Below are positions 13,601 to 16,502 of a stretch of 64,000 nucleotides of DNA, one piece after another. The stretch is from positions 186,001 to 250,000 of the forward strand of contig NZ_JAUTAZ010000001.1 in the NCBI RefSeq assembly GCF_030818905.1, written 5' to 3'. Within the stretch, counting starts at the first letter, position 1. Each line of letters begins with the position of its first letter. A program made the position numbers and the translations under genes. The notes under the pieces were generated by a model. The model was not told where the DNA came from, did not search any database, and saw only the letters and a list, made by a program, of their open reading frames with translations. The DNA comes from Microbacterium sp. SORGH_AS_0888 (lineage in GTDB: Bacteria > Actinomycetota > Actinomycetes > Actinomycetales > Microbacteriaceae).

Positions 13601-14089
13601 ATGATCCGCATGACCGCCGTACCCCGCTCCGTCCGCGTCTCCGCGGCCCTCGTCGGCACCGCCGGCATCGTCGCCCTCGCAGGCTGCTCCGCGTCCGCGG
13701 AGGCGGAACAGCCCGCGGCGACCTCGGCGTCGACCCCGACCGCCATCTCGACCGGCCCGGCATCGGCCGGTGCCGCCGACGCCGGGACCGGCACCTACAA
13801 GGACGGCACGTACACCGCGAGCGGCACCTACCAGACGCCGGAGACGCTCGAGACGGTGGAGGTCACCCTCACGCTGCAGGACGACGTCGTCACGGCCGTC
13901 CAGGTCACGGGCGACCCGAAGGCACGCGAGTCGCAGCAGTACCAGTCGCAGTTCATCGGAGGCATCTCAGACGTCGTCGTCGGCAAGAAGCTCGACGAGA
14001 TCCAGGTGAGCCGGGTGGCCGGGTCCTCCCTCACGAGCGGCGGCTTCAACAAGGCGATCGCGGAGATCAAGTCCGAAGCCACCTCGTGA
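13601..14089 (+). CDS. FMN-binding domain lipoprotein
   Basis: 162 residues. A lipoprotein signal peptide ends in lipobox LAGC (acylated Cys29), then an Ala/Thr/Ser-rich linker to about residue 63, then one FMN_bind domain (about 64-158). The flavinylation site, normally SGAT, reads AGSSLTSGGFN at residues 140-150, so the hydroxyl acceptor would be Ser143 or a neighbouring Ser/Thr. Such domains carry FMN on a phosphoester bond and pass electrons outside the membrane. Its stop overlaps the GTG of the flavin transferase gene, and the membrane oxidoreductase follows, making a three-gene redox unit. Confidence 0.88.
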   Translation: MIRMTAVPRSVRVSAALVGTAGIVALAGCSASAEAEQPAATSASTPTAISTGPASAGAADAGTGTYKDGTYTASGTYQTPETLETVEVTLTLQDDVVTAVQVTGDPKARESQQYQSQFIGGISDVVVGKKLDEIQVSRVAGSSLTSGGFNKAIAEIKSEATS

Positions 14090-14940
14090 CCGCCCGGTGG
14101 GCGTTCGAGGCGATCGGCACCCGCTGGGAGATCGAGACGGATCAGACGCTCGCGCCCGAGCCGCGGGAGCGGGTGCGCACGCTCATCGAGTCCTTCGATC
14201 GCGAGTGGTCCCGGTTCCGTGACGACTCGCTCGTCGCGCGCCTCGCGCGGGACGGGGGCGACGCTCCCGCCCCGCGCGACGCTGCGGCGATGTTCGCGCG
14301 GTACGACGATCTGGATGCGGCCACGGCAGGCGCCGTGAACCCCCTCGTCGGCGCCTCCCTGGCCCGACGAGGCTACGACGCGGCCTCGTCCCTCGTCGAC
14401 CGCGGCGCCGAGCCCGCCCCGGCGTGGCTCGGCCTCCTCTCGCCGGACGGGTCCACCCTCACGGCGGAGCCGGGAACGCTCATCGACGTCGGCGCGCTCG
14501 GCAAGGGACGGCTGGTCGACCTCGTGCTCGCCGAGCTGGCTCCCGACGTCGAGGGAACGCTCGTCGTCGACGCGAGCGGCGACCTCGCCGTCCGCGGCGG
14601 ACCGGTGCGGATCGGGCTCGAGCATCCCTACGACGCCTCGCGAGCGATCGGGGTGTGGGAGGTCACCGACGGCGCGCTGTGCGCGTCGGCCGTCAACCGC
14701 CGCGTCTGGGGCGACGGCCTGCACCACGTCCTCGACGCCCGCACCGGCGAGCCCGTGCGCACGTATGCCGCGACGTGGGCACGGGCTGCCGAGGCGATGA
14801 CCGCGGATGCGGCGGCGACCGCGCTCTTCTTCGACGGGGGCCCCGAGCTCGCACACCGCTGGGGCGTCGAGTGGGCACGAATGCGAACCGACGGCGTGCT
14901 GGAGTGGTCGGCCGGCGCCAGGGAAGGATTGTTCCTATGA
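14086..14940 (+). CDS. apbE: FAD:protein FMN transferase (ApbE family)
   Basis: 284 residues. Splits FAD and links FMN to Ser/Thr of partner proteins. Family landmarks: GTRWEIE at the N-terminus, LIDVGALGKGRLVDLVLAE (about 134-152), VDASGDLAVRGG, the HHVLDARTGEP motif (about 214-224) and the metal-site region AEAMTADAAATALFF. No signal peptide or lipobox is visible, unlike many ApbE proteins, so flavinylation may occur before export of its target or the protein leaves by another route. Overlaps its neighbours on both sides by four bases (GTGA, ATGA), so the three genes are coupled. Confidence 0.93.
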   Translation: MTARWAFEAIGTRWEIETDQTLAPEPRERVRTLIESFDREWSRFRDDSLVARLARDGGDAPAPRDAAAMFARYDDLDAATAGAVNPLVGASLARRGYDAASSLVDRGAEPAPAWLGLLSPDGSTLTAEPGTLIDVGALGKGRLVDLVLAELAPDVEGTLVVDASGDLAVRGGPVRIGLEHPYDASRAIGVWEVTDGALCASAVNRRVWGDGLHHVLDARTGEPVRTYAATWARAAEAMTADAAATALFFDGGPELAHRWGVEWARMRTDGVLEWSAGAREGLFL

Positions 14941-16502
14941 CCTCCATCACGGCAGCCTGGACGCGCGGGCTCGCGCTCCTCGGAAGACTGTCGATGTACC
15001 GGCTCGTCCTGCTCGCCCTGGCGCTGCTCGGGGTGATCGCGCTCGGTCTCTCGTTCGTGGGGCTCGTGGTGCCGGGACCCGCAGAGCTCGTGACGACGGC
15101 CCTCGTCCTGGTCGTCGTGGGCCTCGCCGTCGACACGGCGGCGCAGCGGCTCCTGGCGATCCCGTTGCGCATCGAGTCGTCGCTCATCACGGCGGGCATC
15201 CTGCTGTTCGTGCTGCGGCCGACCGTCGAGCCGATCGGCCTCGTGGGCATCGTGATCGCGGCGGCCGCCGCATCCGTGTCCAAGTACCTGCTGGCCTGGC
15301 GTGGACGTCACGTCTTCAACCCGGCGGCGGTGGGCGCGACGGTCGTGACGGTCGTCGCGGCGCTCCTCCCGCTCGATGCGGGCATCGGCAGCTCCGCGTG
15401 GTGGGTCGGATCGCCGGTCATGTTCGCCCCGGTGCTGCTCGTCGGCCTCGTCGTGCTCTGGCGCGTCGAACGGCTCGCGATGGTGTCGCTCTTCGTCGTC
15501 GTCGCGGTCGTCGTCGCCGTGGTCCGCGTCACGCTGCAGTACCAGGCGCTCGGCGAGAGCCTGCCGCTGGGCGACGTCGTCTACACGACTCTCACTGCGT
15601 CGCCGTATCTGTTCCTCGGCGCCTTCATGCTCTCGGAGCCGCTCACCTCGCCGCCGCGGCGCTGGCAGCAGCTGGTCGTGGCCCTCGTCGTGGGCGTCCT
15701 CGCGGGCTGGCCGATCTCGGTCGGCTACGTGACGCTCGGCCAGGAGCGTGCGCTCCTCATCGGCAACCTGGTGGCGTTCCTCCTGTGCCTGCGCGTCTCC
15801 GTGCGTCTGACCCTGCGTGAGCGCCGCACACCGACCCCCACGGTCCACGAGCTGGTCTTCCGGGTGGAGCGGCCGCTGGCGTTCGCGGCGGGGCAGTACC
15901 TCGAGCTGCACGTGCCGCACCGCCGCCCCGACGCGCGGGGAACCAGGCGCGAGTTCTCGATCGTGTCGGCCCCCGCGGATCTGCCGGAGCTCCGCATCGC
16001 CTATCGCGACGGCGTCGGGCCGCAGTCGAGCTACAAGCGGGCCCTCAGCGCCGCCGAGCCCGGCGCCCGCTTCTCGGTCACGGGCGTCTGGGGCGACTTC
16101 GTGCTGCCCGCCGACCCCGCCCGTCCGCTCCTGCTGGTCGCCGCCGGGATCGGCGTGACGCCGTTCGTGTCGCAGCTGCGCCAGCTCGCGGCGCAGGGCC
16201 AGCGGCGCGACATCGTCCTCGTCTACGTCGTGGCGGATGCGGGACAGCTCGCCTTCCGCGACGATCTCGTGGCCGCCGGGGTCCCCGTGATCGTCGTCAC
16301 CCGGGAGGACCCCGGCGCGCTGCCGGCGGGCTGGAGCTGGGCCGGCGGGATCCGGCTGGACGCCGACTCGCTCGGCGCCCTCGTCCCGGACCTCCGCCGG
16401 CGCCACGCCTACGTCTCCGGACCGCCTTCGCTGATCGCCGACCTCGCGCCCGCGTTGCGGCGCGCGCGTTCGCTCACGACCGACGCGTTCGCGGGGTACT
16501 GA
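14937..16502 (+). CDS. NqrB/RnfD-like membrane domain fused to ferredoxin-NADP reductase-like domain
   Basis: 521 residues. The first ~295 residues are about ten hydrophobic helices resembling the NqrB/RnfD/RnfE core (SVSKYLLAWRGRHVFNPAA and FLGAFMLSEPLTSPP are the recognisable loops). From about residue 300 a cytoplasmic FNR module follows: FAD-binding RREFSIVSAP, then nucleotide-binding VAAGIGVTPFVSQLRQL and the C-terminal YVSGPPSLI. No 2Fe-2S domain is fused. The layout suggests NAD(P)H oxidised at the FNR domain, electrons crossing the membrane, and FMN on the partner lipoprotein as outer acceptor. Terminal acceptor unknown. Convergent with pgi, with a small hairpin over both stops. Confidence 0.82.
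   Translation: MTSITAAWTRGLALLGRLSMYRLVLLALALLGVIALGLSFVGLVVPGPAELVTTALVLVVVGLAVDTAAQRLLAIPLRIESSLITAGILLFVLRPTVEPIGLVGIVIAAAAASVSKYLLAWRGRHVFNPAAVGATVVTVVAALLPLDAGIGSSAWWVGSPVMFAPVLLVGLVVLWRVERLAMVSLFVVVAVVVAVVRVTLQYQALGESLPLGDVVYTTLTASPYLFLGAFMLSEPLTSPPRRWQQLVVALVVGVLAGWPISVGYVTLGQERALLIGNLVAFLLCLRVSVRLTLRERRTPTPTVHELVFRVERPLAFAAGQYLELHVPHRRPDARGTRREFSIVSAPADLPELRIAYRDGVGPQSSYKRALSAAEPGARFSVTGVWGDFVLPADPARPLLLVAAGIGVTPFVSQLRQLAAQGQRRDIVLVYVVADAGQLAFRDDLVAAGVPVIVVTREDPGALPAGWSWAGGIRLDADSLGALVPDLRRRHAYVSGPPSLIADLAPALRRARSLTTDAFAGY

Follow-up and report, generated by a model that had tools for sequence, protein, structure and literature searches.

A conserved NQR/RNF-like flavin module of Microbacterium with an ApbE transferase that lacks a visible export signal

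Three overlapping genes in a 64,000-nucleotide stretch of Microbacterium DNA (the window) form a well-conserved member of the known NQR/RNF-like kind of flavin system, and this module is nearly universal in the genus. We consider it probable that the module is a two-protein transmembrane flavin electron exporter of that kind, provided with its own flavin transferase, and that its FMN is loaded in the cytosol. This would place a predicted flavin electron exporter near the core genome of a readily cultured genus.

Results

The module lies on the + strand and consists of gene 1, encoding an FMN_bind lipoprotein of 162 amino acids (13601..14089); gene 2, encoding an ApbE FAD:protein FMN transferase of 284 amino acids with a GTG start (14086..14940); and gene 3, encoding a 521-amino-acid protein in which an NqrB/RnfD-like membrane domain is fused to an FNR domain (14937..16502). 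In the sequence, the stop of gene 1 overlaps the start of gene 2 by four bases (14086..14089, + strand), and the stop of gene 2 overlaps the start of gene 3 by the same length (14937..14940, + strand). This arrangement, on which the original prediction was built, was confirmed from sequence, profiles, and structures. The genome around the window is a single contig of 3.64 Mb, and the nearest named proteins to gene 3 are from Microbacterium. The genes on the 5' side, encoding a PRPP synthetase and a presumably GlmU-like protein (a label that rests on its domains), gave no functional hint, nor did the phosphoglucose isomerase gene on the opposite strand at the 3' side. A promoter scan of the locus found none, and a terminator scan found one terminator-like site, inside gene 2 (shuffles mean, 0.3), which we disregarded.

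Gene 3 divides into an RnfD/NqrB-like membrane domain (about residues 1 to 285; 14937..15791, + strand) and an FNR-type FAD/NAD(P) domain (about residues 286 to 521; 15792..16499, + strand). PF00175 scored over its cut-off in the latter, and residues G404, G406, T408, P409, D516, F518, and G520 fall in invariant columns of 59 aligned rows. The homology of the membrane domain to NqrB/RnfD, on which the original prediction could have been refuted by a profile search, stayed below the Pfam cut-off for PF03116 (E 1.2e-5; 25.3 bits against 27.7), yet it was settled by HHalign and structure. Residues E234-P235-x-T237 stand opposite the D-x-x-T of RnfD and are also invariant in the 59 rows. HHalign placed the FMN-bearing loop of RnfD against a gap of the fusion family that directly follows a conserved WW. 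The missing loop agrees with the report that NQR/RNF-like membrane subunits are without the covalent site that is conserved in both NqrB and RnfD (Huang et al. 2024, PMC11334425). The flavinylation stretch of RnfD itself reads, by eye, DAVTTATPL in L228; the TGATPL form occurs in 3 of 16 sequences, and [ST]GAT in no others. A second FNR-type domain lies outside the window (G000:C1:3097081-3097707), in a 502-amino-acid open frame, and is 35% identical to that of gene 3.

For gene 1, the FMN_bind Pfam score was under the cut-off (E 0.0046), and Foldseek alone gave no match at E<=0.001; its domain nevertheless has the FMN_bind fold and is NqrC/RnfG-like. Gene 1 is the sole relative of its kind in the genome, the next match (E 0.009) covering only model positions 5 to 57, which are the signal part. 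Its lipobox, L-A-G-C (13676..13687, + strand), has a signal hydrophobicity score of 2.09, and Cys29 is invariant in 23 aligned sequences. A lipobox after a hydrophobic stretch was found in 111 of 126 gene 1 products. Those of Patescibacteria and Ktedonobacteria have a hydrophobic N terminus (2.2 or more in 13/13 rows) without a lipobox. Tat as a general export route of gene 1 was considered and rejected: RR precedes the lipobox in 30 products, and 3 show a loose twin-arginine pattern, which in L064 and L136 seems to lie 5' of the start codon. In Microbacterium testaceum FXH-28 (L131, 4704-5109), the gene 1 frame has no in-frame signal, as would be expected from a break in the frame or an error in the sequence.

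Where would gene 1 carry its flavin? The canonical motif D-x-x-[ST]-G-A-[ST] is absent, and the window reads S-R-V-A-G-S-S, with A-G-S-S at residues 140 to 143 (14018..14029, + strand). Judged by alignment, Ser143 stands opposite the flavinylated Thr/Ser of [ST]GA[ST], and position 143 is the likely acceptor residue. Ser-Ser replaces A-[ST] in 112 of the 123 distinct gene 1 loci (AGSS in 89, SGSS in 19, GGSS in 3, and ASSS in 1), and the other 11 have GAT or GAS. G141, S143, and T145 were kept in at least 90% of 51 aligned gene 1 products, and the motif aspartate was kept in 32 of 122 readable loci. In the enzymes tested, loss of the aspartate had minor effects on flavinylation, a serine acceptor was flavinylated less well than threonine, and a Thr-to-Ser exchange lowered flavinylation (PMC12052999).

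Gene 2 matched Pfam ApbE with 109.3 bits and PDB ApbE chains from E 1.9e-8, and the genome has no other ApbE match. Both features expected of an ApbE are present, a Ser-His-Asp triad and a D-A-x-x-T sequence, which we take to be the metal site motif. Ser201, His214, Asp241, and Thr245 are invariant in 22 aligned sequences and align with residues of 6nxi, presumably the Vibrio cholerae ApbE. The triad has been described for ApbE, and most ApbE are described as secreted (PMC12052999); an export signal is typical though not universal. Does gene 2 encode such a signal? No hydrophobic stretch was found at its start or upstream of it. To score this across loci, we took the most hydrophobic 15-residue stretch near the N terminus, together with up to 45 in-frame residues upstream, and set a cut-off of 1.6; this is a score and not a trained predictor. 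None of 125 ApbE of the system reached the cut-off (median, 0.44; maximum, 1.53), and 124 of 126 gene 1 products did. Of the two exceptions, L117 has a lipobox, and the N terminus of L131 seems out of frame. In Patescibacteria and Ktedonobacteria, the ApbE again stayed below 1.6 in all 11 rows that have one. Among ApbE from other contexts of the phylum, 17 of 30 reached 1.6, so the test can detect signals; these 30 control loci were retained out of a search that matched 41 of 100 genomes, and one row (L198) is probably misplaced through a clipped flank. The gene 2 ApbE thus looks cytosolic, a point absent from the original prediction. Cytoplasmic ApbE is known in Klebsiella, where its substrate is cytosolic (PMC12052999), and has been predicted in Paracoccus (PMC7660919). 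EetB, the subunit through which Listeria exports FAD (PMC9973259), had no match in any of 120 family genomes; its control was positive in 2 of 14.

Other-context ApbE that look G+C-rich by eye (L218-L226) likewise are without an N-terminal hydrophobic stretch. Because these fail the signal test, a signal-less ApbE may be usual in G+C-rich Actinomycetota and not special to this system, and flavin loading before export may extend beyond the module.

How widely is the module kept? Within the genus, 112 of 119 genomes matched the fusion at E<=1e-30 (2 partially), and long matches occurred in 54 of 120 family genomes (55 places) and in 4 of 246 genomes of the phylum sample. In a scan of named genomes, the matches listed included Microbacterium, Arthrobacter, Aeromicrobium, Nocardioides, Cellulomonas, and others, with several Patescibacteria and two Ktedonobacteria. 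We assembled 138 loci from the window, 57 further loci, and 80 of the more than 80 matches of that scan, and we scored genes as adjoining up to a gap of 400 bases. ApbE lies directly upstream of the fusion in 125 loci, and gene 1 is at its own expected position in 126. The complete order FMN_bind-ApbE-fusion was seen in 122 of 138 loci, or 119 of 135 after identical fusions were dropped. The search for this order across Actinomycetota, proposed together with the original prediction, found it there and also in Patescibacteria and Ktedonobacteria.

Sixteen of the 138 loci did not have both neighbors. Among these, L141 and L171 are contig starts; L139 has the genes in order with a gap above the 400-base limit; gene 1 of L062 and L107 is at a distance of about 2.6 and 2.4 kb; and L102 and L115 have no adjoining ApbE, with other ApbE in their genomes. 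L189, L193, and L197 have a different arrangement, L195 and L196 have gene 1 only, and L133, L181, and L183 have neither neighbor. L101, one open frame that resembles an ApbE-fusion gene, was taken for a frame break and excluded, because the N-terminal part of gene 3 matches another frame and because of the quality of the genome (86% complete; contamination, 5).

A tree of 59 fusions has a branch, supported at 100/99, with the Actinomycetota on one side; two Saccharibacteria adjoin them, and the other Patescibacteria and the Ktedonobacteria are on the far side. Three Saccharibacteria-type loci (L168, L180, and L186), two of which branch next to Actinomycetota, have the module with GSS, the form of the motif usual in Actinomycetota. 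Saccharibacteria epibionts live on Actinomycetota hosts; no transfer is shown by this tree. Listed among Microbacterium proteins is a 64% identical fusion on a "plasmid" contig (3.15 Mb) of Coraliomargarita sp. W4R53, maybe from a mixed culture or a mislabeled chromosome.

No conserved partner gene emerged among neighboring open frames of at least 120 amino acids. When such frames were clustered at 53 loci chosen by eye from the 138, the clusters of gene 3, gene 1, and gene 2 covered 53, 52, and 52 loci, three further clusters (44 to 45 loci) were the opposite strand of the same genes, and the next family beyond the module reached only 12. Neighbors named by eye include isocitrate dehydrogenase, an S8 protease, MFS, small heat shock, and P-type ATPase proteins. 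At 5 of the 53 loci (L088, L093, L098, L110, and L165), the opposite strand downstream carries a gene that by eye resembles a P-type metal ATPase.

Discussion

In the model that we favor, NAD(P)H would reduce the FAD that the FNR domain of gene 3 binds on the cytosolic side, and electrons would pass to a noncovalent flavin in its RnfD-like membrane domain, then to FMN on Ser143 of the gene 1 lipoprotein at the outer face, and from there to an extracytosolic acceptor. The sequence does not tell NADH from NADPH as the donor. The domain reading and a path from cytosolic NAD(P)H to outer FMN through one polypeptide fit all of our findings and match the published proposal (PMC8238504, PMC11334425). 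ApbE would load FMN in the cytosol onto the still unfolded gene 1 precursor, which would then be exported as a lipoprotein with its FMN attached. We infer cytosolic loading because the ApbE has no visible export signal; its action on an unfolded precursor is plausible because ApbE can modify a seven-residue motif (PMC12052999). Passage of an FMN-bearing chain through Sec would be part of this model. Our confidence is reduced because, in one tested bacterium, a cytosolic form of ApbE failed to replace the exported form (PMC12052999). We also count against the model the noncanonical motif, S-x-x-A-G-S-S in place of D-x-x-[ST]-G-A-[ST].

Could the same electron path operate with flavin attached outside the cell? 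The ApbE would then leave by a nonclassical route, and FAD would be supplied by some exporter. The general secretion of ApbE, the failed replacement by a cytosolic form, and the mention of extracellular flavin transferases in PMC10339131 speak for this explanation. However, the absence of a hydrophobic signal from all 125 ApbE of the system and of an EetB homologue from all 120 family genomes makes it unlikely.

A respiratory enzyme of the Nqr type, which would pass electrons to menaquinone in the membrane and move Na+ or H+, appears to us improbable. Its membrane domain would be a true RnfD relative, as gene 3 is, and the invariant E234-P235-x-T237 facing D-x-x-T would be in keeping with it. 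However, no protein of the genome matched PF02508 (Rnf-Nqr; NqrD/E-type, RnfA/E) at E<=0.001, in a search whose control rang in 4 of 14 genomes, and no second PF03116 match was reported at that threshold, in a search that did not report gene 3 itself either. With the covalent FMN loop missing, only one of the two half-paths of Nqr is left. Gene 3 showed no 2Fe-2S domain. For these reasons (no PF02508 protein, no 2Fe-2S domain, no covalent FMN loop), a full Nqr cycle is not expected from the encoded proteins, and the "minimal Nqr" of the original prediction goes too far. A lipoprotein with loosely bound or no flavin is very improbable; in that case ApbE would have another substrate, and gene 3 would reduce free flavins or other compounds. 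The noncanonical acceptor motif and the below-cut-off FMN_bind score of the window would suit such an arrangement, but it accounts poorly for the conservation of G141, S143, and T145, for an ApbE set between gene 1 and the fusion in 122 of 138 loci, and for a genome without a second FMN_bind relative with a matching domain.

The site of flavin attachment is the point worth pursuing. The signal-less ApbE raises the question of where an exported covalent flavoprotein gets its flavin and whether Sec passes an FMN-bearing chain. Two routes have been contrasted, cytosolic loading followed by Tat export and Sec export with cofactor supply outside (PMC9973259), and the module seems to match neither. 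That the whole system, from Actinomycetota to Patescibacteria and Ktedonobacteria, attaches flavin in the cytosol and exports the flavinylated precursor through Sec is a tentative proposal, to which we give slightly less than even weight. If true, it would be a third way of loading, beside folded Tat export and flavin export with outside loading, and would make an FAD exporter unnecessary. With the fusion present in 112 of 119 sampled genomes, a deletion strain of an ordinary laboratory Microbacterium could reveal what such systems reduce.

The architecture is already classified: it was described and named "NQR/RNF-like" in 2021, from 127 clusters in 127 of 31,910 genomes, mainly Actinobacteria and CPR, with NAD(P)H as the presumed donor (Meheust et al. 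2021, PMC8238504). It was modeled in 2024 in Ktedonobacter, with close contact between the two subunits (PMC11334425). Our module shares with these systems the FMN_bind subunit, the ApbE, an N-terminal NqrB/RnfD-like and a C-terminal NAD-binding domain in one protein, and a membrane domain without the covalent FMN-Thr of NqrB/RnfD. Gene 3 combines an N-terminal PF03116 with a C-terminal PF00175, and the ApbE/FMN_bind cluster with one signal or lipidation is recognized by fold and lipobox rather than by the E limit for FMN_bind. The clade of the window differs from the published description in its acceptor motif, which is mostly GSS. In the accessible texts, we found no statement on a signal-less ApbE in such systems, and the 2021 figures, which mark secreted or lipidated proteins, may show it; nor did we find experiments on any member, subscription papers and supplements aside, or wording on such systems in the accessible text of a 2025 RNF/NQR review (PMC12174285).

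The survey required matches at E<=0.001, and one or more target genes had to bear a signal (PMC8238504). The cluster of the window would probably fail these rules, because its FMN_bind E value is 0.0046 against 0.001 and its ApbE has no signal, although the Pfam version differs. Since our own cluster would probably be lost, the published rules seem to miss many members. The fusion occurs in 112 of 119 genomes of one genus, compared with clusters in 127 of 31,910 genomes in the survey.

Other systems share parts of the module. With Na+-NQR and RNF it has in common the RnfD/NqrB fold, an NqrF-like FAD domain, and an NqrC/RnfG-like FMN domain; it differs from them in having only two electron-transfer proteins, an ApbE without a visible signal, and neither the PF02508 subunits nor covalent FMN on NqrB/RnfD. 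The Listeria EET system (FmnB/PplA) also uses an ApbE-type transferase, and its flavinylated proteins pass electrons to outer acceptors, but there EetB-FmnA exports FAD for flavinylation outside (PMC9973259), whereas our module has a signal-less ApbE and no EetB was found in the family genomes. SpNox and related NADPH oxidases (8qq5, 8qt6) likewise fuse an FNR domain to a membrane electron carrier. The membrane domain of SpNox-type oxidases bears heme, whereas that of gene 3 is RnfD-like.
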